From positions 62,001-126,000 of the IMG/VR virus record IMGVR_UViG_3300032116_014939: 64,000 bases of DNA. One strand, given 5' to 3'. The stretch is from a virus. The position numbers and the translations under genes were made by a program. The notes under the pieces are model-generated. The model worked only from the letters and a program-made list of their open reading frames with translations. It did no database searches and was not told the origin of the DNA. Below, one piece after another: positions 8,258-35,763 of this stretch (its first letter is position 1; every line of letters starts with the position of its first letter).

Positions 8258-11200
8258 TTATATATAGTTAAAATTGTTTGCAGTTGTATAAACAAGTCCT
8301 AAAGTGAACGAACCACCCGCCGCTCCATCAACACCACTTGTTCCTGATGAACCTGAACCAGAACTTCCTGATGAACCACTTGAACCAGAACCTGATGTTC
8401 CTGATGAACCAGCAGTACCTGAAGAACCACTTGAACCAGAACCTGATGTCCCAGATGAACCCGCGGTACCTGAAGAACCACTTGAGCCAGAACCTGAAGT
8501 CCCCGATGAACCCGCAGTACCTGAAGAACCACTTGAACCAGAACCTGATGTTCCTGATGAACCAGCAGTACCTGAACTACCTGATGAACCCGAACTACCT
8601 GAAGTACCTGATGTTCCAGATGAACCGCTAGTACCACTACTTCCATTTGACCCTGAAGTTCCCGATGAACCTGAAGTACCTGATGACCCTGAAGTTCCCG
8701 ATGAACCACTAGTTCCTCTTGAACCCGTACTACCCGATGAACCAGAGCTTCCTGATGACCCACTTGAACCCGAACCAGATGTTCCTGAAGAACCTGAACC
8801 TGATGACCCACTTGAACCAGATGTTCCACTAATACCATCTAGACCACTTGTTCCTGAAGAACCTGAACCTGAACTTCCTGATGACCCAGCACTTCCTGAT
8901 GTTCCCGAAGAACCGCTAGTTCCTGATGAACCTGAACCAGAACTTCCCGATGACCCAGCGCTTCCTGATGTTCCTGAAGAACCACTTGTTCCACTACTTC
9001 CTGTGATACCCGACGAACCAGAACTACCTGATGAGCCAGCACTTCCTGATGTTCCTGAAGAACCACTTGTTCCACTTGAACCAGAACTACCCGATGACCC
9101 AGCGCTTCCTGAAGTTCCACTTGTACCGCTAGAACCTGAAGTTCCCGATGAACCACTGGTACCTCTTGACCCTGTACTTCCTGAAGAACCTGAACTTCCA
9201 CTTGAGCCTGATGAACCTGATGTTCCCGAAGAGCCGCTAGACCCACTTGAACCTGATGAACCTGACGAGCCACTCGAACCAGATGTTCCTGATGAACCGC
9301 TAGTCCCCGAAGAACCTGAACCTGAACTTCCTGATGACCCAGCACTTCCACTTGAGCCAGAGGTACCCGAAGAACCTGACGTTCCGCTACTACCTGTAAT
9401 ACCCGATGAACCAGAACTTCCTGATGAACCACTACTACCTGATGTTCCTGAACTACCACTAGTTCCACTACTTCCTGTAATACCTGAAGAACCTGAACTA
9501 CCACTACTTCCTGATGAACCACTAGTTCCACTACTTCCTGTAATACCTGAAGAACCACTACTTCCTGATGAACCACTAGTTCCTGATGAGCCAGACGTTC
9601 CCGAAGAACCAGTATTTCCACTAGAACCTGAAGAACCACTTGTACCCGATGAACCCGATGTTCCACTAGAACCCGATGAACCACTTGAACCAGTGCTACC
9701 TGAAGAACCGCTAGTTCCTGATGTACCTGATGAACCTGAAGTTCCTCTTGAACCTGTACTTCCTGAAGAACCAGAACTTCCGCTTGAACCTGATGACCCA
9801 CTTGAACCTGAAGTTCCTGATGAACCACTAGTTCCTGATGAGCCAGCACTTCCTGATGACCCTGAACTTCCTGAAGAACCTGAAGTCCCTGAACTACCAC
9901 TAGTTCCACTACTTCCTGTTAAGCCTGAAGACCCACTACTTCCTGAAGAACCACTTGTTCCTGATGAACCTGATGTACCAGAACTACCTGTATTACCTGA
10001 ACTCCCACTTGAACCTGAACTTCCTGAAGAGCCTGAAGTTCCAGAACTACCACTTGTACCCGAAGAACCTGTATTACCCGAACTTCCACTTGAACCAGCA
10101 CTACCTGATGAACCGCTAGTTCCAGAAGAACCTGATGTGCCAGAACTTCCAGTAATACCTGATGAACCTGAACTACCACTTGAACCTGAGCTCCCTGAAG
10201 TTCCAGAACTTCCACTAGTACCCGATGAACCTGTATTTCCACTTGAACCTGAACTACCCGCACTTCCACTTGAACCCGATGTTCCTGAACTTCCACTTGT
10301 TCCTGATGAACCTGTATTACCCGAACTTCCGCTACTTCCTGAAGAACCACTTGACCCTGAAGTACCCGAAGAACCAGATGTTCCTGAACTTCCACTTGAA
10401 CCAGAAGAACCGCTAGTCCCTGATGTACCTGAAGAACCACTTGTTCCTCTTGAGCCCGTACTACCTGATGACCCTGAGCTTCCACTTGAACCTGAGCTTC
10501 CTGAAGTTCCAGAAGAACCACTTGTTCCACTACTTCCAGTATTACCTGACGAACCTGACGACCCACTTGAGCCAGAAGAACCTGAAGTTCCAGAAGAACC
10601 ACTTGTTCCACTTGAGCCAGCACTTCCGCTAGACCCCGAACTACCTGAAGAGCCAGAAGAACCTGATGTTCCACTTGACCCAGAAGTTCCTGATGAACCA
10701 CTATTACCCGAAGAACCTGAGCTTCCACTTGAACCAGAAGAACCTGATGTTCCTGAAGAACCTCCAGTACCACTTGAGCCAGTACTTCCACTACTACCTG
10801 ATGAACCCGAACTTCCTGATGTACCTGAACTACCACTAGTCCCTGAAGAACCTGTATTTCCACTTGAACCCGAACTACCCGAAGAACCCGATGAACCTGT
10901 ACTACCTGAACTTCCACTTGAGCCTGAAGACCCTGATGTTCCACTACTACCCGATGTACCTGAGCTTCCACTAGACCCTGACGAACCACTTGAGCCAGAA
11001 GAACCTGATGTTCCAGAACTTCCACTAGTACCGGATGAGCCAGTGTTTCCGCTTGAACCTGAACTACCCGAGCTTCCTGAAGAACCACTTGTACCTACTG
11101 AACCTGAAGTACCAGCACTACCGCTAGAACCACTACTTCCACTTGAACCTGATGAACCTGAGCTTCCACTAGAACCAGAACTACCTGATGTACCAGAACT

Positions 11201-14200
11201 TCCGTTAGAACCTGATGTACCTGAACTTCCTGATGTTCCTGATGAACCACTAGTTCCTCTTGAACCCGTACTACCTGATGAACCTGAACTTCCAGTTGAC
11301 CCTGACGAACCACTTGAACCAGAACTACCAGATGTTCCTGACGAACCACTAGTACCCGATGAACCTGTATTTCCACTTGACCCTGAACTACCACTTGAAC
11401 CAGAAGAACCTGATGTACCAGAACTACCATTAGAACCTGAAGTTCCAGATGAACCTGATGAACCTGAACTACCGCTTGAGCCAGCACTTCCCGATGTTCC
11501 TGAACTACCGTTAGAACCTGATGTTCCACTTGAACCACTACTACCTGATGAACCTGTGCTACCACTTGAACCAGATGAACCACTTGTTCCAACACTTCCG
11601 CTAGACCCTGAACTACCCGAACTTCCTGATGAACCACTTGTACCTGATGACCCAGAAGTTCCTGACGAGCCAGATGAACCTGATGAACCAGCACTTCCCG
11701 AAGAGCCACTTGTCCCTACTGAACCCGATGTTCCGCTTGACCCTGTAATACCTGATGAACCCGAACTACCTGAAGACCCACTTGAACCTGATGTTCCTGA
11801 ACTTCCACTAACACCTGATGAGCCTGAACTTCCACTAGAACCTGATGACCCTGAAGTTCCTGTTGAGCCAGATGTTCCTGAACTACCACTAGAACCAGAT
11901 GACCCTGAGCTTCCTGATGACCCACTTGTTCCCACACTACCACTAGTTCCTGAAGAACCCGTACTACCACTTGAGCCAGAAGAACCTGAACTTCCTGAAG
12001 TACCTGTTGAGCCAGATGTTCCTGAACTACCACTCGTACCTCTTGAACCTGTACTACCTGAACTTCCGCTTGAACCTGATGAACCGCTACTACCTGATGA
12101 ACCACTTGTTCCAGAAGAACCTGATGTACCAGAACTTCCGCTTGAGCCAGATGAACCAGCACTACCACTTGAGCCAGATGTCCCTGATGAACCACTCGTT
12201 CCACTTGAGCCAGTATTACCTGACGAACCAGAACTACCCGAACTTCCGCTAGAACCACTTGTACCCGATGTTCCTGAAGAACCACTAACACCTGATGACC
12301 CCGAACTCCCACTACTTCCACTTGAGCCAGAGCTTCCTGATGTACCACTTGAACCTGATGTTCCTGAAGACCCTGTACTACCACTTGAACCAGAAGAACC
12401 TGAACTACCCGATGTTCCAGCACTACCACTACTACCACTTGAACCTGATGTTCCAGCAGACCCCGATGTACCAAAACCTGATGACCCCGAACTTCCTCCC
12501 GAACCTGAGCTTCCACTAGAACCTGAAGTTCCTGAACTACCGCTAGTACCTGAAGAACCTGATGTTCCACTAGAACCAGATGAACCACTACTACCTGAAG
12601 AGCCAGATGAACCAGCACTTCCAGATGTACCAGAAGACCCTGAACTACCGCTAGAGCCTGAGGTACCACTTGTACCTACTGAACCTGATGTACCAGAACT
12701 TCCAGATGTCCCTGAAGTACCTCTCGACCCTGTTGAGCCTGAACTACCTGAAGACCCTGAACTTCCAGATGAACCTGATGTTCCGCTACTACCTGAAGTA
12801 CCGGCAGAACCTGAACTTCCTGAACTACCATTAGAACCTGATGTTCCACTAGAACCTGCACTTCCCGAACTTCCACTTGAACCTGATGTTCCTGCAGAAC
12901 CCGATGCACCACCTGTTCTATAATAAGTTTTACCTGTATTATCTACAACAACAAATTTTGTTTGATTATCATCTTGAGTAATTTGAGCAATTGTTAATTC
13001 ATTTGTTGTTGTTGCCGATGCAGTTATTTGATTAACATTAAATAAATCATTCCCTCCTAATCCTAAATCACCTGTCATTTGTCTTCCACCATCAACTAAA
13101 AGATATTGTTGGTGGTCATCAGCAGTTAAACCTAACAAATTACCGTGTACCGATGTCGCGTTAACACCACTTGACTTAAAACCAATTACAGGTCTAATAT
13201 CCTCAATTTGAACAATACCTCCAAATCCTTGTTGGATATAAACAGACGCAATTGATACCACACCATCCGTAAAATAATCAGGAGGTAATGGTAATGGAGC
13301 CGCCTCAGCTTCAACAAGAGTCGCATATTCTTGTTGACCTAAAACTAAAAAGTATTCTTCATTAATACCTTCACCGACAACATATAATGTATGTTTAGTA
13401 TAATACGATGTGGTTAATGCTGATAATGAATTTTCATTTTTATTATATTGAAAATTATTTACAAACGTAGTTGCACTTCTTGTCCAATTTGTACCATTGT
13501 TCCAATATTGTGTAAAACTTATTGGTGTTCCACCTGTTGGTGTAAAATTATTTTCTGATAACCAATAACTACCAGATGTCACATCAAGAGTAAATGATGT
13601 TGAACCTGTTGTAACAATAGAACCTGTTGAATAAACTGGACCTAACGCTTGTCTGTTAAAGCTTGATAATAAATTTGCAGTATGTTGAGCGTTGTATGGC
13701 GCAGCATCAATCAATTCAATACCTGTCGCGTTTGTAACTACTCGACCCATAATAATATTATAGAATGGGTCAGGTAATCCTGAATTTGCAACTAACGTTC
13801 CGTTATTTGAAATATAAATGTAGTTATCAGTTTCAGCACTTAATGTTAACTGACCATCAACCCAATCATATCTTTTAATAATACTATTATCTGTTTGGTC
13901 AGCTAAATATCCAAATCCTGCAGATGTATTGATTGTTCTACCACTAACAATAGTAATTGTACCACCACTTAATAATCCCATTGGACTACCTTGAAAAATC
14001 AGTGTAGAAGCATCTGTATGTGTTCCATCTGCGAAAGTAACCGATAACTTTCTTGTTACGTCGTTCTCACCATCCGTATCATCCAAGAAGTTCCAATAAA
14101 AGTCCTCACTTGCTGTAATTATTTTTGAGTGGTCTGAAATACCCTGAAATCTACCTATTGTCGATGCGTTTTCAATTAAAAAGTCATTAGTAATTGAATC

Positions 14201-16168
14201 GTGAATCATGGTACCAACCATTCTAAAAGTAGGCCCACCACCTGTATTTGGTACGTAAACGGCAATATCCCATTCTTGAATATCCATACCTGTTCCTTCC
14301 AATACCGCAGAGTCTGATAACACAAATGCGGTTGAACCTGTTAGTAATGCACCTTCAAAAGTACACCCGTTGAACGATAAAAGTGTTCCAGAGCCAGTAC
14401 CGCTATTACCAATAACATCATCATATGTTGGGAACAAGAAATAGTTTTCCATATTACCCAACGCCTGAAACCCATTAGTTGCTTCAACTTTTAATCCGTA
14501 ACTAAACTCACCATTAACATCGACATATTCACCATAGAACTTGGTATCTTGTGTTGATGATTTTATCCATACACCAATATCTGAATCATATATTGAAATC
14601 TTATGAGCTTGTCCAAAATCACCGATATCATCACAGTGAATTGCCGCATATCCTGCACCAGCACCTGATAATGTTAAAAACGATACTTCGTTATTAATAC
14701 CTATATTAATAATATGTTGAGTAGAACCCGTTGGGACAATTTGTGTAGTTTGAATATTACTACCCTCAATACTCACATACGGTTTTCCAGTTAAATTAAT
14801 TTGTCCCTCAGAAAATAACCCAGGTCCAACTCTAACCAAAAAACGATTATTAATTGACGAACCTGTAATCCAATCAACTGCACTCTTAATAGATGTAAAG
14901 TCACCACCTTTTTTAGCGACCGTAATAACTCTTGGGTCTTGGTTAACTTCATATAACGGAGCGTCAATCGGTATTGTAGTTTTTAAGAATGTATCAGTAC
15001 CTTCAATTTTACCTGTTGCAGTTGGATGTTCAACTAATACGTCTTGAGTATTATTTTCAAAGTTAAGAGCCGAACCAAATATACTTGGAGCTGAGCCCGT
15101 GTTTGGAGCATATATCGCAGTTACCCATCGTTGGAAATTAACTGCCGTTAATCTTAACGAACCTCCGTTTTCAACCCAAAATCCTGTTCCTGCCGCAACC
15201 CCAACAGCCTTTGTTAATAAACATCCGTTAACAATAAACGTACAACCTGGTTGGTCTGCCTTTGCAAATATTAATCCTGATGTCGTACTAACACCTCCAT
15301 TAGTAGATGTAACGTTTCTAAGTTGCATCCTACCAATACCACTACCATCATTTGTAACATAGAAACCTATAGTAAATGGATATCCACCATACTTAACGTT
15401 AGAACACTGTATGATACAGTTTCCACCACCTGTTCCAACAACTTTTGCGTGAGTATAGTTTGTACCAAATCTTACGTTTTCAACATATGCAATTGCATTA
15501 GTTTGAGGAGTTGTCGATGATGAATAAACAATAGACGACGCACTTGTTCCTGATGAACCTTGAATTTGCATGTCCTGAACCATTGATTGGTCGGCCATGA
15601 TGAAAACACTATTATTAGGATTACTTGCTTGTAGGATAGTTGTTGTACTATCACCACCTCTAACCGTAATCCATGATTTCATTGTGATGGTATCTTCAAT
15701 ATATAAACCAGGATAAACTCTAACTTCCCAAGTACTATTTGGAGTTGCACCTGTTATACTATCTACCGCATCTTTAACGGAATTAAAGTCTGTTGAACTA
15801 CCACTTAATCCAACAGTTACATAATTTTCTATAATTGTATTAAAATTATAACTTAACGATGTCCAATTTGTACCATCACTAGTTATTTGAATTGAATCAT
15901 TCTGAATTAATGTAACCGTAGTACTCCCATCTATAGTTTCACTACCATTTGGGTCAACAGTTATTGTACCGGTACCATTATTTTTAATTACATATAATTT
16001 ACCCTGCACACCTACCGCAGTAGGTAAATTAATAGTAAAAGTACCACCAGAGACAGCGACCATATAGTCGTCATCAGTAATCGTATATGTACTACCAATT
16101 GTTACTTGTGGATATGTTATACCACCTAAGGATATTATACCCCTTCTCGCAACAAACTCATTTGCCAT
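8258..16168 (-). CDS. Giant collagen-like tail fibre with beta-helix domains (2636 aa)
   Basis: Residues ~1-110 form a beta module (SGGTFTINLPTAVGVQGKLY) also found inside the 1370-aa fibre. Two tandem pectin-lyase-like right-handed beta-helix units follow at ~115-395 and ~410-680; each opens with an FxSxKxAVDxITG helix and a VRVxPGLxxE strand. Residues ~700-1085 hold a linker domain with the tail-fibre motif LTADDHQQYL. Residues ~1086-2611 are an almost uninterrupted array of Gly-Ser-Ser and Gly-Thr-Ser triplets with hardly any proline. A 25-residue end (AAGGSFTLGLVYTTANNFNY) follows. The role is probably a long trimeric host-contact fibre, with the beta-helices resembling polysaccharide-binding or -cleaving fibre domains. 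The gene has its own candidate promoter after the upstream terminator. Confidence 0.8.
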   Translation of the reverse strand: MANEFVARRGIISLGGITYPQVTIGSTYTITDDDYMVAVSGGTFTINLPTAVGVQGKLYVIKNNGTGTITVDPNGSETIDGSTTVTLIQNDSIQITSDGTNWTSLSYNFNTIIENYVTVGLSGSSTDFNSVKDAVDSITGATPNSTWEVRVYPGLYIEDTITMKSWITVRGGDSTTTILQASNPNNSVFIMADQSMVQDMQIQGSSGTSASSIVYSSSTTPQTNAIAYVENVRFGTNYTHAKVVGTGGGNCIIQCSNVKYGGYPFTIGFYVTNDGSGIGRMQLRNVTSTNGGVSTTSGLIFAKADQPGCTFIVNGCLLTKAVGVAAGTGFWVENGGSLRLTAVNFQRWVTAIYAPNTGSAPSIFGSALNFENNTQDVLVEHPTATGKIEGTDTFLKTTIPIDAPLYEVNQDPRVITVAKKGGDFTSIKSAVDWITGSSINNRFLVRVGPGLFSEGQINLTGKPYVSIEGSNIQTTQIVPTGSTQHIINIGINNEVSFLTLSGAGAGYAAIHCDDIGDFGQAHKISIYDSDIGVWIKSSTQDTKFYGEYVDVNGEFSYGLKVEATNGFQALGNMENYFLFPTYDDVIGNSGTGSGTLLSFNGCTFEGALLTGSTAFVLSDSAVLEGTGMDIQEWDIAVYVPNTGGGPTFRMVGTMIHDSITNDFLIENASTIGRFQGISDHSKIITASEDFYWNFLDDTDGENDVTRKLSVTFADGTHTDASTLIFQGSPMGLLSGGTITIVSGRTINTSAGFGYLADQTDNSIIKRYDWVDGQLTLSAETDNYIYISNNGTLVANSGLPDPFYNIIMGRVVTNATGIELIDAAPYNAQHTANLLSSFNRQALGPVYSTGSIVTTGSTSFTLDVTSGSYWLSENNFTPTGGTPISFTQYWNNGTNWTRSATTFVNNFQYNKNENSLSALTTSYYTKHTLYVVGEGINEEYFLVLGQQEYATLVEAEAAPLPLPPDYFTDGVVSIASVYIQQGFGGIVQIEDIRPVIGFKSSGVNATSVHGNLLGLTADDHQQYLLVDGGRQMTGDLGLGGNDLFNVNQITASATTTNELTIAQITQDDNQTKFVVVDNTGKTYYRTGGASGSAGTSGSSGSSGSAGSSGTSGSNGSSGSSGSAGTSGSSGTSGSSGSSGSSGSSGSTGSRGTSGTSGSSGTSGSVGTSGTSGSSGSSGSSGTSGSAGSSGSSGSSGSSGSSGTSGSSGTSGSSGTSGSSGSSGSGGSSGSSGFGTSGSAGTSGSSGSSGSAGTSGSSGSSGSSGSTGSSGTSGSSGTSGSSGSSGSSGSSGSSGVSGSSGTSGTSGSSGSSGSSGSSGNTGSSGTSGSSGTSGSSGSAGSSGSSGSSGTSGSSGTSGSSGSSGSSGSSGSSGSTGSRGTSGSSGTSGSTGTSGSSGSSGSSGSTGSSGTSGSVGTSGSSGSSGSSGSSGSSGTSGSTGTSGSSGSSGSSGSSGVSGSSGTSGSSGSSGSSGSSGITGSSGTSGSVGTSGSSGSAGSSGSSGSSGTSGSSGTSGSSGSSGSSGSSGSVGTSGSSGSSGSTGSSGSSGSSGTSGSNGSSGTSGSAGSSGSSGSSGSSGTSGSNGSSGTSGSSGSSGSSGSSGNTGSSGTSGSSGTSGSSGSSGSSGSTGSSGSSGSTGSRGTSGSSGTSGSSGTSGSNGSSGTSGSSGSSGSSGSSGSSGSSGSSGSAGTSGSVGTSGSSGSSGSSGSSGNTGSSGTSGSSGTSGSSGSSGSSGSSGSSGTSGSSGTSGSSGSSGSSGSTGSSGSSGSSGSSGNTGSSGTSGSSGTSGSSGSSGSSGSTGSSGTGGSSGTSGSSGSSGSSGSSGNSGSSGTSGSSGTSGSSGSSGSSGSSGSAGSSGTSGSSGTSGSSGSSGSSGSSGNTGSSGTSGSSGTSGSSGSSGSSGSSGSTGSRGTSGSSGTSGTSGSSGSSGSSGTSGSSGTSGSSGSSGSSGSSGNTGSSGTSGSSGTSGSSGSAGSSGSSGNTGSSGTSGSSGTSGSSGSSGSSGSSGITGSSGTSGSSGTSGSSGSAGSSGSSGNTGSSGTSGSSGTSGSSGSSGSSGSSGNTGSSGTSGSSGTSGSSGSSGSSGLTGSSGTSGSSGTSGSSGSSGSSGSAGSSGTSGSSGTSGSSGSSGSSGSSGSSGSTGSRGTSGSSGTSGTSGSSGSTGSSGSSGSSGTSGSSGTSGSSGSSGNTGSSGTSGSSGTSGSSGSSGSSGITGSSGTSGSSGSSGSSGSSGITGSSGTSGSSGTSGSSGSSGSSGSSGITGSSGTSGSSGTSGSSGSAGSSGSSGSGSSGTSGSSGTSGSSGSSGSSGSSGSSGSSGTSGSSGSSGSSGSSGSTGSRGTSGSSGTSGSSGTSGTSGSAGSSGSSGSSGTSGSSGTSGSAGSSGSSGSSGITGSSGTSGSSGTSGSAGSSGSSGSGSSGTSGSSGTSGSAGSSGSSGSGSSGTSGLDGISGTSGSSGSSGSGSSGTSGSGSSGSSGSSGSSGSTGSRGTSGSSGTSGSSGTSGSSGTSGSNGSSGTSGSSGTSGTSGSSGSSGSSGTAGSSGTSGSGSSGSSGTAGSSGTSGSGSSGSSGTAGSSGTSGSGSSGSSGTAGSSGTSGSGSSGSSGSSGSGSSGTSGVDGAAGGSFTLGLVYTTANNFNYI
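8335..12913 (-). repeat. 9-bp-periodic collagen-like coding repeat array
   Basis: About 4.6 kb encoding (Gly-X-Y)n with X and Y mostly Ser or Thr. Synonymous codons vary strongly, so the DNA repeats are imperfect. A higher-order 27-residue (81-bp) unit recurs, of the form NTG-SSG-TSG-SSG-TSG plus four SSG triplets. The triplet phase breaks at several GSGSSG sites near the C-terminal end of the protein. Confidence 0.9.
8385..8588 (-). repeat. Four tandem 51-bp repeats
   Basis: Four consecutive near-identical 51-base copies begin at about 8385, 8436, 8487 and 8538. Each encodes a 17-residue unit, GTAGSSGTSGSGSSGSS, containing one break in the Gly-X-Y phase. Copies differ by a few, mostly synonymous, bases. 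Confidence 0.8.
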
Positions 16169-16252: not shown

Positions 16253-16262
16253 TCCTAAAATG

Positions 16263-16318: not shown

Positions 16319-19300
16319 TTAAATTGTAATTCTTGTTGATATACTAATGTTCCAACTACCTTTATTCACATCAGCCCAAAACTCAACATTACCACCTGAC
16401 ACCGTAACCCTTAACTCAATACCCAAAGTAGAGTCATTTAAGTCAGGAGTTGATATATCAACATAAGTAGCGTTAGATGTGTCCCAAATACTCATTACTT
16501 GGCCACCTCTTGTTGCAGTTGTGGTTGGATTATTAACCCAATAATCAAAAATTGCACTACGTCCTAATGATGTACTAAATGAACAAATACGTGTTGATGC
16601 GGTAATACTTGTACCACTACAAGAAGTTAAAGATTGTTTTCCATATTCAACAGTATCACCTGTAATACCTAAAGTTGTACCATCAAAAGTTAATTTACTT
16701 TGAGCAATCGCACTATTTGTAGAGGTACCTGAAGCAGTTAATATTCTGTAATCAGCAGGATTAGCAATTGTATTGAAACCTGTACCTGATGTACCAGCAC
16801 TACCGCTAGAACCCGAAGTTCCACTTGAGCCGGATGAACCTGAACTGCCAGAAGACCCTGATGTTCCTGAAGAACCACTTGTACCCGAACTTCCTGAGGT
16901 ACCACTTGAACCTGACGAACCACTTGACCCAGATGAGCCAGAACTTCCGCTAGAACCAGATGTACCCGAACTTCCTGAACTACCACTACTACCTGAAGAC
17001 CCTGATGTACCACTTGAACCAGAAGTTCCTGTAGAACCGCTAGACCCTGATGAACCTGATGTTCCTGAAGACCCACTACTTCCCGAAGTACCTGATGAAC
17101 CACTTGACCCACTTGACCCACTAGTACCAACCGACCCAGAAGAACCGCTTGTACCAACACTTCCTGAACTTCCACTACTACCTGATGAACCAGACGAACC
17201 TGAAGTTCCAGATGAACCACTAGTACCAACACTACCTGACGACCCAGAAGAACCCGAGCTCCCTGATGTCCCACTTGAGCCCGATATTCCTGAAGAACCG
17301 CTAGTACCTACACTACCGCTACTTCCACTTGAACCAGATGTTCCTGTAGAACCGCTAGACCCTGATGAACCACTACTACCCGATGAACCTGAAGAACCAC
17401 TTGTTCCTGATGTACCCGCACTTCCTGAAGAACCGCTACTACCTGAAGAACCAGAAGAACCACTAGTACCAGATGTACCTACGCTACCACTACTACCAGA
17501 AGAACCACTACTACCGCTAGACCCTGAACTACCTGATGTTCCACTTGAGCCAGATGTTCCAACACTTCCACTAGACCCTGAACTACCCGATGAGCCAGAA
17601 GACCCTGATGTTCCGGAACTTCCTGAAGAACCGCTACTACCACTAGTACCAGAACTTCCCGTAGAACCAGATGTTCCGCTACTACCTGATGAACCAGAAG
17701 TTCCAACACTACCACTAGAACCAGAACTTCCTGAACTCCCACTACTACCTGATGTTCCGCTTGACCCAGATGTTCCAACTGAACCTGATGAGCCAGAGCT
17801 TCCTGAACTGCCACTTGAACCAGAAGAACCTGATGTTCCACTACTTCCCGATGAACCACTACTACCGCTAGTTCCTACACTACCTGAAGAACCTGAACTT
17901 CCGCTTGTTCCCGAAGAACCAGTTAGACCTGAAGAGCCTGAACTTCCACTACTACCACTAGAACCACTTGTTCCTGAAGAGCCACTTGTACCTACACTAC
18001 CGCTACTTCCACTTGAACCAGAAGAACCTGATGTACCAGTTGACCCAGATGTTCCTGTACTACCCGAAGAACCGCTACTTCCACTTGAACCTGATGACCC
18101 TGAAGTTCCTGATGAACCAGTTAATCCCGAAGAGCCTGAACTTCCACTAGACCCACTTGAGCCAGAAGTTCCAACACTACCGCTACTTCCACTTGAGCCA
18201 GAAGTACCTACACTACCACTTGAACCAGAACTTCCTGAAGTACCTGTTGACCCAGATGACCCTGAAGTTCCTGATGAACCACTTGTACCAGCACTTCCCG
18301 AAGTTCCAACCGAACCCGATGAACCACTAGAGCCCGAAGAACCACTACTACCTGATGTGCCACTTGAACCTGAAGAACCTGTTGACCCTGAACTTCCACT
18401 ACTACCACTTGTTCCAGAAGAGCCAGTTAAACCTGAAGACCCAGAACTTCCACTACTACCCGAAGAACCTGAAGTTCCTACCGAACCACTACTACCTGAT
18501 GTTCCAGTACTCCCCGAACTTCCACTTGAGCCTGCACTACCTGATGAACCTGATGTTCCACTAGAACCCGATGAACCACTTGACCCAGTGCTACCTGAAG
18601 TACCACTAGACCCACTTGAGCCAGAAGTCCCAACACTACCGCTACTTCCAGATGAACCTGAACTTCCACTTGAACCAGAACTTCCTGAAGTACCTGTTGA
18701 CCCAGATGTTCCAGAACTTCCTGTAGAACCCGATGAACCTGAACTACCCGATGAGCCACTTGTACCAGCACTTCCTGAAGTCCCAACCGAACCCGATGAA
18801 CCACTTGAACCTGAAGAACCTGATGTTCCAACACTACCAGATGAACCAGAACTTCCTGAAGTACCAACAGAACCACTACTACCTGAGCTTCCACTTGTTC
18901 CCGAAGAACCAGTTAGACCTGAAGAGCCTGAACTTCCGCTACTTCCTGATGTTCCAGAACTTCCTGTAGAACCCGATGAACCTGAACTACCTGATGAACC
19001 ACTTGTACCAGAAGTTCCAACACTTCCACTTGAACCAGATGAACCGCTAGAACCTGATGTTCCTGAAGACCCTGTTAAACCCGAAGAACCACTTGACCCT
19101 GAAGTACCAACACTACCTGATGTACCTGAAGAACCAGAACTACCACTAGAACCTGAACTTCCTGATGAACCAGAAGAACCACTACTACCACTAGTTCCTA
19201 CACTACCAGATGAACCACTTGTACCACTAGAACCTGTACTTCCACTTGAGCCAGAACTTCCACTAGTACCTGTTGAGCCAGAACTTCCACTTGAACCAGA

Positions 19301-23549: not shown

Positions 23550-23550
23550 A

Positions 23551-27035: not shown

Positions 27036-27720
27036 ATATTATATTTGATGCTTTATAAGCATTATTTTTTATTTCAATTCCATTCAATAATGCCGAGAAA
27101 CACATCTCATCTATGTTACCAGCGGGTATGTTTCTTAAACCTTTTTCTTTTTTATATTCAATACACTTGTCCCAAGTATCTAAAAAACTATTAAACTTAT
27201 CTTCATCAATACTCAAGTATTGAATACAATCTTCAGGCATAACCTCCAACTTATCTTTATCAACCTCATGATTGAAATACTTTTCATACTCAAGTAATCG
27301 TCTACCTAATTCACTATTGGTATGAACTTGTTCGTTAAAATTATATGTTACAGGCCCTGATAAACAATTTTCATCAAACGCCCCCAAAATCTTTTCTTGA
27401 TTAAAAAAAGATGGGTTAACTCTCATATCACAATCAACTAATATGATTTTAGTAAAACCAATACTTAAAGCAGCTCTTAACGAATATCTTTTAACTGAAA
27501 AATCAAAGTCATAGTAGTTTTTAGCATACTCCAAATAATTTGGATTAAAATCATTAATGTTAAAAGTGTGGACAAATTCTTGATTATTAATCTTACTTGG
27601 GTCATCAGTAATGACAACCAAATTTGTTTTATAATCTGATTCTATGATATCACCAATAAATCTATTAACTTGGTTATAATATCTTTCACCAAAACAAAAA
27701 GTAGCAAATGTAAATTTCAT
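27010..27720 (-). CDS. GT-A-like glycosyltransferase
   Basis: 236 aa. The start MKFTFATFCFGERYYNQVNR, the KRYSLRAALSIGFTKIILVDCDMR segment (shown in pieces: ALSIGFTKIILVDCDMR at ~80-96) and its DxD motif are typical of nucleotide-sugar-dependent GT-A enzymes. The remainder, with CLSGPVTYNF and a C-terminal KASNIIYAEHDKWY, would form the acceptor side. It starts 3 bases after the GT60-like gene. The exact family is not recognised; it could belong to the glycogenin/GT8-like or an unassigned phage group. No signal peptide is present, so it would act in the host cytoplasm. Confidence 0.6.
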   Translation of the reverse strand: MKFTFATFCFGERYYNQVNRFIGDIIESDYKTNLVVITDDPSKINNQEFVHTFNINDFNPNYLEYAKNYYDFDFSVKRYSLRAALSIGFTKIILVDCDMRVNPSFFNQEKILGAFDENCLSGPVTYNFNEQVHTNSELGRRLLEYEKYFNHEVDKDKLEVMPEDCIQYLSIDEDKFNSFLDTWDKCIEYKKEKGLRNIPAGNIDEMCFSALLNGIEIKNNAYKASNIIYAEHDKWY

Positions 27721-27723
27721 ATC

Positions 27724-28968
27724 TTATAAATTTCCTGTTATTCTATCACACCATCCTTTAGATTCCGAGTGTGGCCAAACCACCCAATATTTAGGTTTTG
27801 AATCAGTTAAGAACTCTCTCCAAACTTTACAATAACCATCAGGGTCTCTTAGCATTCTATCAACTTCACCTTTATCAGCATCTTGTCTGTAAATGGTTTC
27901 ATCTAATTCATTATGGAACGCAACAACCCAAAAGTCATAATCCTTTTCAGGTACTTGAGTAAACCCAATATCAATACAATGTTTGAATACTGATGTAAAT
28001 GATTTTAACCATTCTTCTTCTGAATTGAAGTTATTTGGATTAGGTGGATAACCTTTATCTAATGTATATTGTTGAACGGCTCTCTTTGAAAAGAGTAGTC
28101 CTGAATATTTTTCATAATCTCTTAAACTTCTAACTTTACCAAAACCATATTTTCCGTGATTCATATTTTCCTCACCATCCATACCAAATAGAGAACGATT
28201 TTTCTTGTGAGCAAAATTATTCTTATCCACCCATTGTTTATCGTCGTCCCATTGTTTGGTTCTACCTTTGCGAGTATATTCATGCCAAATCAAAACTTTG
28301 TGTGGGTGGAATAAATCATATCCGTGAGTGTAAGCTCTTGCGGCAATTGAAATCTCTTCTCCGTGAAAATAAAACTCAGGGTCGTGTTGAACTTCTTTAG
28401 CGAACTTACCAAGAGTAAAACAGAAGTGAGCGGAATAAAATCTTGCGGTAACAGGTTCAGTTAGATTTTGCCAACCAGGAATTGTTTCAGGTAAAAAGAA
28501 AACCGCACCTTCAGGAATAAATCTATCAAACGCCATTCTCCACGGCTCGTTAACACGTAAACTTGGGTCATTGTCAGGGTCAAATGATGAAACATATCCT
28601 GTCAATAAAGGTTTCTTATATCCTTTCTTTTGAAGTTGTTTAATCATCTTAATCATCTCATCATCCCAATCTTCAGCAAACCTCATGTGTGAGTCAATTT
28701 GAAGAGTGTAATTTTCCTTATCATACACTTGTTGTATTTGATTTCTCGCCCAACATGCTCCTCTAGATTCATAATAAGGAATATCAATTATTCTAAATCT
28801 TTCATCATCTCTATATTCATCTAAATTATCAAAATTATCATCGCGATGATACTGACGAGCAATACCGAAAACTAAGTTTTCAGGTCGTTTAGCATTTTCT
28901 AATGCAGATTTTATAGTTGGGATTAACTGTGGGTCTCTATAAGACGCAACTTGTATAAAAATTTTCAT
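27724..28968 (-). CDS. GT60-type GlcNAc-transferase-like enzyme
   Basis: 414 aa. It starts MKIFIQVASYRDPQLIPTIK, followed by RPENLVFGIARQ, QIDSHMRF at ~89-96 (a DxH metal site in place of DxD), and FYFHGEEISIAARAYTHGYD at ~196-215. This order and these residues are characteristic of the GlcNAc family (GT60), whose known members include the Dictyostelium Skp1 polypeptide GlcNAc-transferase acting on hydroxyproline. It would use UDP-GlcNAc or a similar donor and probably a protein acceptor. It is the first gene of a five-gene glycosyltransferase run set between collagen-like fibre genes, which makes phage fibres plausible acceptors. The family call is firm; the acceptor is inference. Confidence 0.8.
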   Translation of the reverse strand: MKIFIQVASYRDPQLIPTIKSALENAKRPENLVFGIARQYHRDDNFDNLDEYRDDERFRIIDIPYYESRGACWARNQIQQVYDKENYTLQIDSHMRFAEDWDDEMIKMIKQLQKKGYKKPLLTGYVSSFDPDNDPSLRVNEPWRMAFDRFIPEGAVFFLPETIPGWQNLTEPVTARFYSAHFCFTLGKFAKEVQHDPEFYFHGEEISIAARAYTHGYDLFHPHKVLIWHEYTRKGRTKQWDDDKQWVDKNNFAHKKNRSLFGMDGEENMNHGKYGFGKVRSLRDYEKYSGLLFSKRAVQQYTLDKGYPPNPNNFNSEEEWLKSFTSVFKHCIDIGFTQVPEKDYDFWVVAFHNELDETIYRQDADKGEVDRMLRDPDGYCKVWREFLTDSKPKYWVVWPHSESKGWCDRITGNL

Positions 28969-29021: not shown

Positions 29022-29828
29022 TTAATAAGTTTGAGCAGTTTGATATGTTTGTCTTGCAACAGTTGCAGTAAAGTTATTTACAGTATGTAGCGTAGTCCAT
29101 GTTGTTCCATTATTACTACCCGCAATAGTCCATGATTTAGGGTCTCTACTTTCAGCATCATTTGCGGTAGCCCATCTATATCCATTAAATGTTTTAGCAG
29201 TTGAGAACTGAAATATAAAATTAGTAACATTTCCGTTTGAGACAAAGTTTAAATCTAATCCTTTTGTTGCCAAATTACCATCAATTAATTTTGAGGGTTC
29301 TTCACCTACAGGATTACTACCACCAGGATTTGTAACGGTAACACCCGTCATACTTTGGTCAACACCATTTAACCTAAAAACAAATTCAGCAGCCTGTACA
29401 GCATTAGCATCAGGTGGCGATGTCTTTGTTTGAGTTATTTGCCATCTATAATAAGTAAATGAACTAACATAAGATGTCCAATATCCTGATGAGTTCAACC
29501 ATGTTTTAGCCGCGGATGCACTTGCAAATGTTTGTGGTGTTCCCGTAAAACTTGATACGTACTGAGACAAACTAATAAAGTTATTATCTGTCTTACCTGA
29601 TGTTCTCCAAAAACCAATATAAGCAGGAACTCCAACAGGATTTGGTTGTGTTCCTGATGGAACAGTATGAGCAATCACATAACCCAAATCTTCATCAGGC
29701 CCATTCCACCATCTTAAACCTGTGGATGTAAACCCACTTGTTGGTGTACCAATAGCAATACTTCCGACTTGTTCTGTCCCTGATATTGTTGAACCTGTGT
29801 TATATGCGAAGGGTCTTGATGTTGCCAT
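29022..29828 (-). CDS. Tail protein with discoidin-like (F5/8 type C) domain
   Basis: 268 aa. The C-terminal ~140 residues resemble a galactose-binding, discoidin-like fold: a YYRWQITQTK strand, EPSKLIDGNLATKGLD, FNGYRWATANDAESRDPKSW, then TIAGSNNGTTWTTL. Those are the signature strands of F5/8 type C/CBM32 domains, which often bind glycans. The N-terminal ~120 residues (RPFAYNTGSTISGTEQVG; GLRWWNGPDEDLGYVIAH) are a separate module of unknown family, perhaps for tail attachment. It lies between the lectin-like LamG gene and the glycosyltransferase cluster. A role in binding host surface sugar is inferred. Confidence 0.65.
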   Translation of the reverse strand: MATSRPFAYNTGSTISGTEQVGSIAIGTPTSGFTSTGLRWWNGPDEDLGYVIAHTVPSGTQPNPVGVPAYIGFWRTSGKTDNNFISLSQYVSSFTGTPQTFASASAAKTWLNSSGYWTSYVSSFTYYRWQITQTKTSPPDANAVQAAEFVFRLNGVDQSMTGVTVTNPGGSNPVGEEPSKLIDGNLATKGLDLNFVSNGNVTNFIFQFSTAKTFNGYRWATANDAESRDPKSWTIAGSNNGTTWTTLHTVNNFTATVARQTYQTAQTY

Positions 29829-29833
29829 TTTAT

Positions 29834-31651
29834 TTATAATCCATATTTTGATTTAGTATTATTATAGTTTGTTGTTACATCACTGGCGGTTAATCCTGTG
29901 GTATAAAAATAACAGGCACCTATTTTACCATTTAAATAAAGTGATGATATACCAGTACCAATGTAACCCAAATAAAGAGGGTTAGTTTCACTATATGTAT
30001 CAGTACCATGAGCGGTTGTTATATATTCGGTATTATTAATATACACTTTGGTGGTATTAGCAGTTGAGGTAATTCGTGAAACAAATGTAAATAAATACCA
30101 AGTATTAATTGAAACGGTTAACGTAGAGTCGGATATTTTTTGAACCCCCGTTCCATTTGTAACTACCCTCACAACGCCAGCATTCGAGAATAACCCACCC
30201 CAATACCCATCAAATCCAAATGAACTGGATAGTTTTCCAAAGACCGGAACTTGTTGACCTGAACTAGGTAAAACGTCAAATTTAACCCAAACTTGTATTG
30301 TTCTTTGGGTTGTAGTATTTAAACTAAGATTAGCAGTATGAGGTATACTTATTGTATTACTAGTCCCATTTAAATCAAAAATACCTCCGTCAGTAGACAA
30401 CCAAGTGGCACCATTTATAGTTGCGTTATTCCCATTCCCCGTTTCATCAGTCCAAGTACCACTAACATAATTAGTTGCATCTAACTTCATAAATAAATTA
30501 CTACTAATTACCCCACCCTCACTTGTTGATGACGGAGTAATTGTTGGTGTTGGTGTAATTGTATTTGTTGGGGTTTGTGTTGGTGTTGGAGTATTAGTTT
30601 GAGTGTTAGTAGGTGTAATTGTTGGTGTTATTGAAGGTGTTGGAGTTTGAGTATTAGTTGGAGTTGGAGTAGGTGATGGTGAAATAAATCTTGATGAAAA
30701 TGAATTAAAGTTTGTTAACACTTCTGTTGAACTTAAAACTCTATTGTAAGTCATTGCAATTGAAACTCTACCATTTAATAAATTACCTCCTGCGCCATAA
30801 GAACCAATCCTTGTAGAACCATTACCACTTACAGGTGTTTTTTGAGCAGTATATGTACTATCCTGAACACCATTAACATATAGAATGAAACCATTTGTTG
30901 TGTCAAAAGTAAGACATGCATTATACCAAACACCATTACTAAAACTTGTTGTTGAGGGATAAACACCATAATTACCCCAATTTGAGTGTCCACAGTATAA
31001 TTTATTTGAACCTGCAAAATACATAAAGTGTCCACCCGTATCGCTACTTAATAAGTTGTTATCAGCAGTTGAGTTTAGGTAAAACCAAACGTTTTTAGTA
31101 TATGCTGTTATTCCAACAGGAGTACCTGCAACGTTAACATATTGATTACTTCCGTTAAATGTAAGGTATCCATTATTACTTGAACTGAATGTCGGAGTAT
31201 TAATTAATGTTCCGTTGTTACCACTAAAACTTAAATCATCCCATCGTGAACCACTTCTTGGATATGATGAAACATAACCAGCATCAAGTAATAATGTTAA
31301 TCCATTAGTTACAATATCAGGATAATCAAGGTTAACACAAATAAGTCCTGTTTGACCTGTATACCATCCTAACGCTTCGTTAGCGGTACTAAATGTTTGA
31401 CCTGCAAATCCTTGAGTAAACCCAATAAGTTCTGAGTCGTTTTGAGCAACCACTATGGATGGTCCGGCAACAGCCTTGTTTCCATACATGGTATAACCAC
31501 CTGATGGTGGTATAATAGAATTCCAAAATCCTGTAACACTTGTTGGCCCGTATTCCGCACCTTCATTAATACCTAAAACCCAATCCTTAACTTTAATCGT
31601 ATTAGGATGAAAGGACGTTGAGTATTTTATTTTATTTGGTGGTATTGGCAT
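29834..31651 (-). CDS. Tail protein with two LamG/ConA-like domains
   Basis: 605 aa from the ATG at 31651, which overlaps the stop of the 1370-aa fibre gene (TAATG). A longer start at 31681 lies within that gene and is disfavoured. Residues ~1-100 form an N-terminal module (VLGINEGAEYGPTSVTGFW). A LamG-like jellyroll follows at ~105-290 (GNNGTLINTPTF, YLTFNGSNQYV, RIGSYGAGGNLLNGRVS). A Thr-Pro linker occurs at ~325-375, and a second LamG-like domain at ~380-605 (NGNNATINGATWL, KIGACYFYTTGL). Such domains commonly bind carbohydrate, so this is a candidate receptor-binding protein. The assignment is from motif order and not a search. Confidence 0.7.
   Translation of the reverse strand: MPIPPNKIKYSTSFHPNTIKVKDWVLGINEGAEYGPTSVTGFWNSIIPPSGGYTMYGNKAVAGPSIVVAQNDSELIGFTQGFAGQTFSTANEALGWYTGQTGLICVNLDYPDIVTNGLTLLLDAGYVSSYPRSGSRWDDLSFSGNNGTLINTPTFSSSNNGYLTFNGSNQYVNVAGTPVGITAYTKNVWFYLNSTADNNLLSSDTGGHFMYFAGSNKLYCGHSNWGNYGVYPSTTSFSNGVWYNACLTFDTTNGFILYVNGVQDSTYTAQKTPVSGNGSTRIGSYGAGGNLLNGRVSIAMTYNRVLSSTEVLTNFNSFSSRFISPSPTPTPTNTQTPTPSITPTITPTNTQTNTPTPTQTPTNTITPTPTITPSSTSEGGVISSNLFMKLDATNYVSGTWTDETGNGNNATINGATWLSTDGGIFDLNGTSNTISIPHTANLSLNTTTQRTIQVWVKFDVLPSSGQQVPVFGKLSSSFGFDGYWGGLFSNAGVVRVVTNGTGVQKISDSTLTVSINTWYLFTFVSRITSTANTTKVYINNTEYITTAHGTDTYSETNPLYLGYIGTGISSLYLNGKIGACYFYTTGLTASDVTTNYNNTKSKYGL
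30534..30680 (-). repeat. Thr-Pro linker coding repeat
   Basis: Imperfect short repeats encode [20 protein letters not shown]-type sequence joining the two LamG-like domains. It is related in style to linkers at 22990-23121 and 36325-36555. Confidence 0.75.
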
Positions 31652-34600
31652 TATCTTGCAACTTCTGTTATTCTTAACCACATTGATGTAGCCCCATTTA
31701 CTATTGTAATACTATCATCCGCAGAATCTCTACGACACGCAACAACTACTGATTTTGCAGTAGTGTTAGAGTTAGTATATCTTCCCGTTAATGGAAACAA
31801 TACACCACTACGATTACCATTTACAGTACTTTGTTTTGAATATGTTATTTCACTACCATCAATTTTTATTCTAGAAAAATATGAGTCATTACCTGTACCA
31901 CTAGCAAAACTATAATCCGCTAAATGATAATGTATCACTAAATAACTTGTAGAACTTAATGGTGTATAACTATAAGTAACAAAATCAGTATCCGAAGTAC
32001 TGGTAGCAATAGTTGTAGTACTAACAGTTACCTCAGTATTACTCAAAATAATATCGTTAATTACCTGACCGGCTCTCCATGCATTAGCCTTTATAAATCC
32101 TGTAAATACCACATTACCTGAAGTGTCTACGGCCATCTTTACAGCCCCACCAGTTTCATTTAATTTATTTGTGATACGAACTAACTGTCCACTTAAAACA
32201 TCAAATGAACCGTTCCAACTATCAATACCATAGTTTGAATTATTAGCATAATAAAACAAAACACCCGGAGTATCTGTACTATTATTATCAAGAATAACAT
32301 CACCAGTAGCTGACCCCGCCCTTGTAAATGTTCCGTTACCAAGAGAGGTTACACCTGTAGTACTTATATTACCAGTAATAGTCGTGGAACCAATAATTGT
32401 TGTATCACCTGTTACCGCCAGTTTAATTCCATCAAAAGTCATTTTAGCTTGAGCAACCGCAGCGTTAGCTGTTCCATCAGATGTTAATATTCTATTACTA
32501 CCCGGACTTGTAATTGTAGTAAATCCAGTACCTGATGTTCCAGCAGAACCTGAACTACCCGATGAACCTGATGTACCAGAACTACCTGACGTACCAGAGC
32601 TACCACTCGTTCCTGATGTACCCGAAGAACCTCTTGAACCTGATGTACCACTACTTCCACTTGACCCTGAAGAACCTGATGTTCCACTTATCCCATCTAA
32701 ACCACTTGTTCCCGATGAACCACCATTACCTGAGGTACCACTACTTCCTGACGTTCCTGAAGAACCCGATGAACCACTACTACCACTAGTACCTGAACTA
32801 CCCGAAGACCCTGATGTCCCACTACTTCCACTTGAGCCCGAACTTCCCGAAGAACCACTAGTTCCAGATGTACCTGAAGTTCCGTTAACACCACCTGTCT
32901 GATAATATGTATTACCACTAGTATCAACAACAACATAACGAGTATTTCCTGTTGAACTTGTAATTCCTGTAACAGTTAAACTACTTGTTGTTGTTCTACC
33001 TGAACCATTAAAATGAATTCTATCAATACCTGAACCATCTTGAATAACTAACACATTGTCGGCATCCGACGCACTACCTCTTCTAAAAGTAATTCCATCA
33101 AGAGTTGAGTTAGTTGTTATTTCTGGTTCAGATGAGTTGTTATATGCTTGTTGTAATGTAGTTGTCGCAACACCTCCCGCAGAACCTACAGTTTCACCAA
33201 ATTTTGATGCAAAAAAGAATTGAGCTTTAGATGAATCACTTAAATCAGTTGCAGTACTTACAACTGATAAAACACCAATTAAAATACCATTACTTGTAAA
33301 ATTACTAAACGTATTAAATTGTTCAGTTGCAAGACCAGCGATTGCTGCAGATAACTGATTATATTCTGTTTGACCATATTGAACTCTAAATTGACCATTT
33401 TGAACCAAATAAATTCTTTGGTTGGTTGCCTTTGTTCCTGTAAGAGGAGTAACAACTCCACCAACATCATAATTTAACGGGTCAATAAATGTTGTATTTG
33501 ATGCGGTACCACCTGTTTGTGTTCGATATTGAAAAGTACAAGGACTTGTACCTGTAACATATAACGCGTTTGGAGTTAGTGTACTTGACGCAAAATTAAT
33601 ACCTAAACCATAAAGATATCCTGCACTTGTATTAAAACTTAAATTAACACCATTAGCTGACGGATATATTCCACCATTTATAAGATTAATAGGAACAAAC
33701 ATGTCCCTGAGTTGAGCTAATGGAGATAGTACAAAATCAGGTTGACTGAACGCGTTAATAATATTTGTTTTGTTTGCATGACCTAATTTACCTAAAAATA
33801 TATTTTGTCTTCTTTGTTGTTCCGTTAGTTCAATATTTGATTGAGCAATAGTCGACCCACTTGTAAGATATACCCAAGTCTCAGTATCAGTATTAACATA
33901 TATTGCAGTATGAGTACCACCACTATAATCAACATAATAGATTTGAGGACTTAATGGATTTGTTGTATCATCAACTATCCACCCTTTAACAGGTGCAACT
34001 CTAAACGTTGTTGTGGATACAATTGATAATCCTGTAAATACAAATACACCTGTTGAGTTATTAACAGTACTTCTATCTTGTCCTAAAATTACCCATTGAG
34101 AACCATTACTCACAAGTTGTGCGGCGTTTGTTTCACTTAGAATTAATAAAGTTTTATCGTCAATCTTTTCACTCCCATAGGGTAGAATAGTTACCGCACC
34201 TCCACCATTATTTTTGATAGCTAATAGTCGACCTTGAATACCAACTGCGGTTGGTAATTGTACATTAAAGGTACCACCAGTAATGTCCACCATATAATCT
34301 GAAGGTGTAATATTATATGTACTAGTAACGGTTTTTTGAGGAAATGTGATACCACCTGTAGATGTTATCCCACTAGTCTGAGTTAAACCTGTAACAGTTA
34401 AAGTACTAGCGGTTAATCCGCTTGTAAAATAAGTATTACCATAAACAGTTCCACCAGTTAATGGTAAGTAATCACCACTAACACCTCCACCACCTGGTAT
34501 GGTAACTGTAACCGCAGGACCTCCTGTTGCATTAACACCTGAGCCAACAAAATCAATAGATGTTACCCCTGATGTTAATAAACTACCTTCGTTATAAATC

Positions 34601-35763
34601 GATATAGCGTTTCCTGATATACCACTACTTCCTGAACTACCAGAAGAACCCGGAGAACCTGTTGGACCTGAAGTACCCGATGTACCAGAACTTCCTGATG
34701 ACCCACTACTACCTGATGAACCTGAACTACCATTTGTACCAGTACCTCCACCTCCACCATTAACAGGAATAACTGTAACAATCAAAGAAGGGATTGCCGG
34801 ATGTAACGCAGTTGCCGCCTGAGCATATAAAGATATATTAGTATTATCTGTCGCCCACATTAATTCAACATATGTTCCAGCGGTAACTGTAACCAAGAAG
34901 TCCCAAGCCGCAACAACATATCTATTATTAGTTTGAACTGTAACTTGAGTATCAGTATAAGGAACGTCAACACCATTTTGCCTTAACCATATATCAACAT
35001 CTTCACCCGAACCACCACCTCCATTATTACTTAATTGAACTGAAAATTGGATGTCATATGTTCCCGCACTTGCGAAAGTAATCTGACTACCCGAAACAAT
35101 TGTGATACCACTAGCCTCAGCGACACTATTTAACCTCATTGGATAAGCGGTATTAATCAAAGAAGCGGTTTGTCCTGAAGTATCATAGAATGAACCATAA
35201 GCATTCGCTCCCGTAACACCACCTGACGAACCCGTTACAAACTTTCTCCATACCGCAGTAGTATATGTTGCCCCACTAACATCTTCAATAGTGTTAGCCG
35301 TCCAAGAATTAATAAACGACTGACCCGCAGCCGTTTTATTATTTATTGTTGTTCCAAAATTAGAAACCTGAGCACATCCCGTACTAGCAGTCGCAGCATT
35401 AAATAACGTCTCGTAATCATTAATATGGTATTGATAAACTTGGTCAACCTCATAAACATAAGCCAACATACCAAGTCGTCTTCTACCTGATGAGATGTTA
35501 TCTGAAGCCAAAGTAATTACATCAGGTGACCAAGCATCTCCCGTTCCTTTTGTAAACTCAATAGGAATAGTATTACCCGAATATTCAATACTTCCCGTGG
35601 TACCTGATGGTATTGTATAATAGAGGTCAGATAAACTGAACACCTCCATGTAACCACCCGTATTATTAACACTGAAAGTAGTACCATACGTATTGTTTCT
35701 TGGTACAGTTTGTGTTCCATTTGCTTGGATAGATGATATTGGGTTTTTATATGGGAAACTCAT
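31651..35763 (-). CDS. Collagen-like multidomain tail fibre (1370 aa)
   Basis: Residues ~1-180 form the N-terminal attachment-like module shared with the 1998-aa fibre (NPISSIQANGT, DNISSGRRRLGMLAYV). A C1q/TNF-like jellyroll lies at ~180-335 (YPMRLNSV, ITFASAGTYDIQFSVQLSN, VELMWATDN). A short collagen-like block covers ~340-384. A long beta region follows at ~400-955 and includes a copy of the SGGTFxxxLPTAVGxQG module of the 2636-aa fibre. A second collagen-like block spans ~958-1078. The C-terminal ~290 residues start GTGFTTITSPGSNRILTSDG, as in the 1998-aa fibre. It is probably a trimeric fibre that presents its C-terminal domain to the host. Confidence 0.75.
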   Translation of the reverse strand: MSFPYKNPISSIQANGTQTVPRNNTYGTTFSVNNTGGYMEVFSLSDLYYTIPSGTTGSIEYSGNTIPIEFTKGTGDAWSPDVITLASDNISSGRRRLGMLAYVYEVDQVYQYHINDYETLFNAATASTGCAQVSNFGTTINNKTAAGQSFINSWTANTIEDVSGATYTTAVWRKFVTGSSGGVTGANAYGSFYDTSGQTASLINTAYPMRLNSVAEASGITIVSGSQITFASAGTYDIQFSVQLSNNGGGGSGEDVDIWLRQNGVDVPYTDTQVTVQTNNRYVVAAWDFLVTVTAGTYVELMWATDNTNISLYAQAATALHPAIPSLIVTVIPVNGGGGGTGTNGSSGSSGSSGSSGSSGTSGTSGPTGSPGSSGSSGSSGISGNAISIYNEGSLLTSGVTSIDFVGSGVNATGGPAVTVTIPGGGGVSGDYLPLTGGTVYGNTYFTSGLTASTLTVTGLTQTSGITSTGGITFPQKTVTSTYNITPSDYMVDITGGTFNVQLPTAVGIQGRLLAIKNNGGGAVTILPYGSEKIDDKTLLILSETNAAQLVSNGSQWVILGQDRSTVNNSTGVFVFTGLSIVSTTTFRVAPVKGWIVDDTTNPLSPQIYYVDYSGGTHTAIYVNTDTETWVYLTSGSTIAQSNIELTEQQRRQNIFLGKLGHANKTNIINAFSQPDFVLSPLAQLRDMFVPINLINGGIYPSANGVNLSFNTSAGYLYGLGINFASSTLTPNALYVTGTSPCTFQYRTQTGGTASNTTFIDPLNYDVGGVVTPLTGTKATNQRIYLVQNGQFRVQYGQTEYNQLSAAIAGLATEQFNTFSNFTSNGILIGVLSVVSTATDLSDSSKAQFFFASKFGETVGSAGGVATTTLQQAYNNSSEPEITTNSTLDGITFRRGSASDADNVLVIQDGSGIDRIHFNGSGRTTTSSLTVTGITSSTGNTRYVVVDTSGNTYYQTGGVNGTSGTSGTSGSSGSSGSSGSSGTSGSSGSSGTSGSSGSSGSSGTSGSSGTSGNGGSSGTSGLDGISGTSGSSGSSGSSGTSGSRGSSGTSGTSGSSGTSGSSGTSGSSGSSGSAGTSGTGFTTITSPGSNRILTSDGTANAAVAQAKMTFDGIKLAVTGDTTIIGSTTITGNISTTGVTSLGNGTFTRAGSATGDVILDNNSTDTPGVLFYYANNSNYGIDSWNGSFDVLSGQLVRITNKLNETGGAVKMAVDTSGNVVFTGFIKANAWRAGQVINDIILSNTEVTVSTTTIATSTSDTDFVTYSYTPLSSTSYLVIHYHLADYSFASGTGNDSYFSRIKIDGSEITYSKQSTVNGNRSGVLFPLTGRYTNSNTTAKSVVVACRRDSADDSITIVNGATSMWLRITEVAR
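32530..32890 (-). repeat. Short collagen-like coding repeat
   Basis: About 360 bases encode Gly-Ser-Ser/Gly-Thr-Ser triplets with rare GLD and GIS units. A second, shorter block lies at 34610-34745. Confidence 0.85.

Follow-up and report, generated by a model that had tools for sequence, protein, structure and literature searches.

The 64,000-nucleotide stretch analysed here (the window) stems from a large lake-type phage and comprises bases 62001-126000 of the 242,064-base IMG/VR virus record IMGVR_UViG_3300032116_014939. Its minus strand carries T4-like replication and baseplate genes and then a block of virion/adhesin genes. This block holds three collagen-like fibre genes, five glycosyltransferase (GT)-like genes running in one direction at 23949-28968 and three virion-type proteins with mucin-like Thr/Pro linkers, which are scattered among the fibres and GT genes (Table 1). 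A previous sequence-only reading had proposed that the five enzymes O-glycosylate the Gly-Ser-Ser/Gly-Thr-Ser (GSS) arrays of the fibres, thereby stabilising or shielding them. The linker-bearing proteins were absent from that reading. It had placed the GT run between the three fibres; the run is real but sits between fibres 2 and 3 and not among all three.

Table 1. Fibres, linkers and glycosyltransferase-like genes of the virion/adhesin block, in window coordinates.
Feature	Position	Strand	Size, support and remarks
Collagen-like fibre 1	8258..16168	-	2636 aa; PF01391 E 2e-186; acceptor proposed by the sequence-only reading
Collagen-like fibre 2	16319..22315	-	1998 aa; PF01391 E 1e-205; acceptor proposed by the sequence-only reading
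Mucin-like Thr/Pro linker of 410-aa protein (gene 22344-23576), proposed acceptor	22968..23135	-	Composition
122-aa protein	23551..23919	-	In 89/148 GT60 loci; possible baseplate-attachment domain, by eye only
HtrL_YibB domain fused to a second GT-A-like domain, proposed core-extending tandem enzyme	23949..25619	-	556 aa; PF09612 E 2.7e-13
Small GT2-like protein	25616..26179	-	187 aa; PF00535 E 9e-5, just under cut-off
HtrL_YibB-like accessory GT	26172..27035	-	287 aa; no Pfam match; profile comparison with HtrL domain 96.5%, E 8e-10
Accessory GT-like protein	27010..27720	-	236 aa; no Pfam match; putative DxD motif DCDMR (by eye)
GT60-family polypeptide O-glycosyltransferase, proposed initiator	27724..28968	-	414 aa; PF11397 E 2.7e-68; phrog_24687 E 7.6e-171
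F5/8 type C (carbohydrate-binding-like) virion protein, first gene upstream of GT60	29022..29828	-	268 aa; PF00754 E 5.8e-6, sub-threshold; phrog tail protein E 5.5e-8
Mucin-like Thr/Pro linker of LamG-domain protein (gene 29834-31681), proposed acceptor	30500..30724	-	LamG PF13385; 0.9 kb from GT60
Collagen-like fibre 3, short arrays	31651..35763	-	1370 aa; PF01391 E 1e-19
Mucin-like Thr/Pro linker of 334-aa protein (gene 35773-36777), proposed acceptor	36316..36582	-	Composition

A Pfam scan of the five GT-like genes gave firm support for two, HtrL_YibB and GlcNAc/GT60, and a sub-threshold GT2 match for one. The GT60 protein gave a full-length match to the PF11397 profile, with 231 bits against a cut-off of 21. 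Its GT-A DxH motif reads DSH; residues D92, H94 and H229 are invariant, and S93 nearly so, in 20 sequences including bacterial ones. A sequence search for relatives of this protein with solved structures found none. Its structure model reached a predicted local distance difference test score of 91, and the best 28 fold matches in the PDB were all polypeptide N-acetylgalactosamine (GalNAc)-transferases. Known GT60 enzymes transfer alpha-N-acetylglucosamine (alpha-GlcNAc) either onto mucin Thr, starting mucin-type O-glycans in T. cruzi with KPPTTTTTTTTKPP as acceptor (PMC3769586), or onto hydroxyproline of Skp1, where the sugars that follow come from a two-domain GT (PMC6939170).

The HtrL fusion was present in 126 of the 148 GT60 loci over which gene content was counted. 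Its C-terminus gave sub-threshold matches to TET-associated GT (TAGT) and phrog_842, and its model was of modest confidence (predicted template modelling (TM) score 0.52) with tandem GT-A fold matches at low TM. The 236-amino-acid protein had a profile match solely to a second family of related GT60 loci (98.8%). The companion genes of the GT60 loci vary and include GT25, a GT10 fucosyltransferase and a rhamnosyl-O-methyltransferase-like gene. GT60, the HtrL fusion and this changing set look like an initiator, an extender and variable caps, respectively.

All three fibres of the sequence-only reading match Pfam Collagen, and its description of proline-poor arrays with hundreds of Ser/Thr residues holds. 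Gly-x-y triplets number 487, 507 and 58 in fibres 1, 2 and 3, proline is nearly absent, and Ser/Thr account for about 900, about 930 and 97 of the x and y positions. Synonymous codons are mixed within the arrays, showing repetition at the protein level and not a simple DNA repeat. The two long fibres have Ser and Thr at about 5:1, and neither shows the BclA-like predominance of Thr at Y (Gly-Xaa-Thr): Thr lies mostly at X (X 119, Y 33 in fibre 1; X 122, Y 38 in fibre 2). Long open frames on the plus strand face the GSS arrays (8304-12923, 1539 amino acids; 16773-21158, 1461 amino acids) and are probably mechanical by-products of stop-free repeat codons and not genes. Three tandem paralogous glycine-rich proteins of about 295 amino acids are encoded at 4910-7607; the one that was scanned matched PF21722, and the paralogues are homologous to proteins near the fibres of relatives.

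The linkers near GT60 consist of 40% Thr, 21% Pro and 6% Ser, and two more linker-bearing genes lie elsewhere in the record. Features typical of virion adhesins in the linker proteins are the LamG domains of one and, in the 410-amino-acid protein, an N-terminus that by eye resembles its 122-amino-acid neighbour.

We compared how linkers and collagen-like arrays are distributed relative to the GTs. Among 80 IMG/VR loci retrieved by GT60, 72 contained Thr/Pro linkers, and long Ser/Thr-rich Gly-x-y arrays were almost confined to the closest relatives of the window. The linker pattern was found in all of 25 long GT60 records and the GSS-array pattern in seven, with a backward control pattern yielding 2 matches in total; eight of the 25 had first been retrieved by the linker pattern, so that linker presence is given there, while the remaining 17 were retrieved via GT60 itself or represent the window's own record. 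For sets anchored on the proteins instead, the viral collection was screened with DNA patterns irrespective of GTs (50 long records of each kind, and 31 neutral-pattern records for comparison). GT60 was detected in 15/50 linker records versus 1/50 GSS-array records (Fisher p 9e-5) and 0/31 neutral records. Its rate in array records did not differ from the neutral one, and in the sole array record that carries GT60, the adjacent upstream gene bears a linker. HtrL behaved alike: it occurred in 10/50 linker records versus 1/50 array records, namely the GT60-positive one, and within the linker records in 10 of the 15 with GT60 and in none of the 35 without. Since most viral records are fragments, counts of absence are lower bounds.

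These counts argue, as a rule, against the collagen-like fibres as the main target. Co-occurrence of fibres and GTs in related phages, by which the sequence-only reading had proposed to be judged, is not what was seen. Its broader idea that the phage glycosylates its own virion proteins is supported, as the GTs are tied to virion adhesin genes; the choice of the Gly-Ser-Ser fibres as acceptors is not. It is true that the arrays adjoin the GTs here and in the nearest relatives of the window, and that the fold matches of the HtrL tandem GT include LH3, mimivirus R699 and COLGALT1 (TM ~0.26), of which LH3 and COLGALT1 modify collagen. Taken with the Ser-dominated composition of the arrays, the placement of Thr and the presence of arrays in only 7/64 GT60 clusters (90% identity, see below), we nevertheless regard fibre glycosylation by the five enzymes as quite unlikely. 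The few hundred Thr residues of the GSS arrays may be modified in addition to another substrate.

GT60 is also physically linked to linker genes. The gene directly upstream of GT60 was linker-bearing in 44 of 92 loci, compared to 6.3% of other genes, and in 41 of 54 further loci. With these 54 loci added, dereplication of the GT60 sequences at 90% identity left 64 clusters, 38 of which had a linker-bearing upstream gene versus 6.8 +- 2.3 when genes were drawn at random from these loci. At 85% identity this held for 13 of 33 clusters (3.4 expected). The proteins upstream of GT60 were clustered with their Thr/Pro repeats masked; left unmasked, the repeats join unrelated genes. In a set of 13 named phage genomes, mostly complete, linkers and GT60 agreed in every case (2 with both, 11 with neither). 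XacN1 and RAS14 encode GT60 homologues at about 45% identity to that of the window and have ~20 linker matches each. This check found neither GT60 nor linkers in T4, PA5oct, Phosso, CBB, Atu_ph07, GAP32, SNUABM_12, S-SKS1, immuto_3-5A, Mel-JY01 and the uncultured 484-kb LR756508. Among bacterial GT60 loci, L498 (Jiulongibacter sediminis), L491, L500, L514 and L570 adjoin mucin-like Thr/Pro-rich genes, and those of Paraburkholderia and cyanobacteria usually have no such neighbour.

Several observations weigh against a functional link between GT60 and the linkers. Single-linkage clustering at 80% identity reduced the data to 14 clusters, in which adjacency was no longer significant (2 versus 1.2); shared ancestry may thus account for part of the association. 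No GT60 was found in 35/50 linker records, some of them fragments, indicating that the stalks do not require GT60; in such records they may be served by other enzymes or by none. In the window's own clade, the 268-amino-acid gene directly upstream of GT60 lacks a linker, and the linker gene is the next one beyond it. The family is not mucin-specific, since a linker-bearing neighbour is missing from most bacterial GT60 genes. Moreover, the fold matches of the HtrL fusion are headed by collagen-modifying enzymes, albeit at low TM. The main statistical worry is co-inheritance: the Thr/Pro stalks might be plain, unmodified linkers that merely travel with GT60 in one phage group. Beyond the 35 records just mentioned, this would fit the linkers in many UvsX-family contigs without visible GT60; these contigs, used as an unselected control, are mostly short fragments and hence uninformative on absence. 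Within-locus adjacency exceeding chance after dereplication argues against it, as does the recurrence of the pairing in the gammaproteobacterial phages XacN1 and RAS14, despite their divergence, and beside some bacterial GT60 genes. We therefore consider pure co-inheritance very unlikely.

Enzymes of this kind could also act on targets outside the virion. Lipopolysaccharide (LPS) synthesis likewise involves members of the HtrL, GT25 and GT10 families, in agreement with the Pfam title of GT25, and variable accessory GTs would be compatible with enzymes that alter the capsule or LPS polysaccharide on the surface of the infected host, for instance to block superinfection. GT clusters in jumbo phages have been proposed to modify the host surface, an interpretation given for jumbo cyanophages (PMC7824862). 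Such a role does not predict the placement of GT60 directly downstream of mucin-stalk virion genes, a fold like that of polypeptide GalNAc-transferases or the strict co-occurrence with linkers in the named genomes, and we judge it unlikely. Glycosylation of phage DNA is the least probable of the alternatives. The C-terminal domain of the HtrL fusion is weakly similar to TET-associated GT and to a hydroxymethylcytosine-alpha-glucosyltransferase family, and in XacN1 a carbamoyltransferase adjoins GT60. Yet PF00303 (dCMP-hydroxymethylase/thymidylate-synthase family) is absent from the 242-kb record, which is possibly incomplete, and was present in only 7/25 GT60 records. Single-sequence searches found no homologue of T4 gp42, alpha-gt, beta-gt or gp56, a TET-type pathway not having been searched for, and the GTs are located in the virion block away from the replication genes. 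As the hydroxymethylcytosine pathway genes were not found, DNA glucosylation was disfavoured.

The GTs thus look like enzymes that glycosylate proteins and belong with the virion adhesin genes, and not like ones acting on DNA or the host surface. We consider it likely, judging from sequence and structure models, that the phage uses the block for mucin-type O-glycosylation of its own virion adhesins, with the Thr/Pro stalks as acceptors. As befits a mucin-type system, the putative acceptor domain is encoded together with the proposed initiating enzyme: in the three window linkers, in 25/25 long records and by adjacency. Prior to assembly, and probably in the host cytoplasm, GT60 would add the first sugar, likely alpha-GlcNAc from uridine diphosphate-GlcNAc, to Thr in the Thr/Pro-rich stalks of three proteins of baseplate/tail type. 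Extension of this sugar would fall to the conserved HtrL tandem GT and capping of the glycan to the variable accessory GTs, joined in relatives by GT10 fucosyltransferase, GT25 and an O-methyltransferase. The resulting stalks would be stiff and coated with sugars, would keep lectin-like tips at a distance from the baseplate and would differ in surface sugars between strains. The analysis established which genes are present, how they are conserved, their adjacency and co-occurrence, the predicted fold and the catalytic motif; from these we infer reaction, acceptor, sugar, linkage, cell compartment and benefit.

The proposed system resembles several known ones. With the GT60 polypeptide alpha-GlcNAc-transferases TcOGNT-2 of T. 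cruzi, Dictyostelium Gnt2 and Skp1 Gnt1 it shares PF11397 and the proposed initiation on a Thr/Pro-rich protein, and with the Skp1 Gnt1 pathway a conserved two-domain GT next in line. In contrast to these systems, the enzymes are phage-encoded and clustered with putative acceptor genes, acceptor and sugar are predicted, and the follow-on GT is the HtrL fusion and not PgtA. Mycobacteriophage GTs also modify virion proteins (Freeman 2023, as cited in PMC12619734); according to that account the targets are C-termini of capsid and tail-tube subunits, whereas here GT60 is paired with long Thr/Pro stalks of tail/baseplate-type adhesins. Serine-rich-repeat adhesin (GtfA/GtfB) systems likewise combine a low-complexity Ser/Thr adhesin with adjoining GT genes and variable accessory GTs. 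They differ in having Ser repeats instead of Thr/Pro, and no dedicated secretion system was seen here; a GtfA/GtfB-type initiating pair was not found in the Pfam scan of the five GTs, which returned HtrL, GT2-like and GT60 only. Collagen-like phage fibres (PF01391) are represented by all three window fibres but as a rule show no link to GT60/HtrL.

Xanthomonas phage XacN1 offers a cultured parallel. At least two virion glycoproteins have been reported for it and its own GTs suggested as their makers (PMC5852040). Of its GTs ORF328 and ORF334, the latter is a GT60 homologue (47%), and candidate Thr/Pro-rich virion proteins are encoded. XacN1 differs by a GT9 and a carbamoyltransferase beside GT60, and the HtrL fusion is not established there. 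The carbamoyltransferase, ORF333 (L095 16409-18706; PF16861/PF02543), lies directly downstream of the GT60 homologue and possibly tailors the same glycan.

SprB repeats of the Flavobacteria gliding-adhesin type occur in virion-type proteins at window positions 36805-38985 and 2602-4632, the second being sub-threshold, and the closest cultured gp6-like matches are in Flavobacterium phages. Together these hint at a Bacteroidota host. A gene at 54673-55494, between the gp25-like and ribonucleotide reductase genes and overlapping the start of a 100-amino-acid frame, resembles by eye a flavodoxin/NADPH-dependent FMN reductase.

Phage-encoded glycosylation of virions is already known. The pairing of Thr/Pro stalks with a mucin-type cassette based on GT60 appears undescribed: the literature searched, which mostly did not extend to subscription papers, yielded no account of mucin-type glycosylation systems encoded by phages. 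It is quite possible that widespread large aquatic phages carry a self-contained cytoplasmic mucin-type cassette of GT60, HtrL tandem and strain-variable caps, dedicated to their own mucin-like adhesin stalks and providing variable sugar coats; eukaryotic mucin O-glycosylation would then have a counterpart in viruses of prokaryotes. If this is so, mucin-type protein glycosylation would be encoded by hundreds of environmental phages themselves, which would explain both a puzzling type of low-complexity stalk and a phage GT family of unknown function, and Thr-linked glycans could be made in bacteria with a small set of enzymes. The manner and purpose of sugar-coating phage tails would become directly testable in the cultured phages XacN1 and RAS14.

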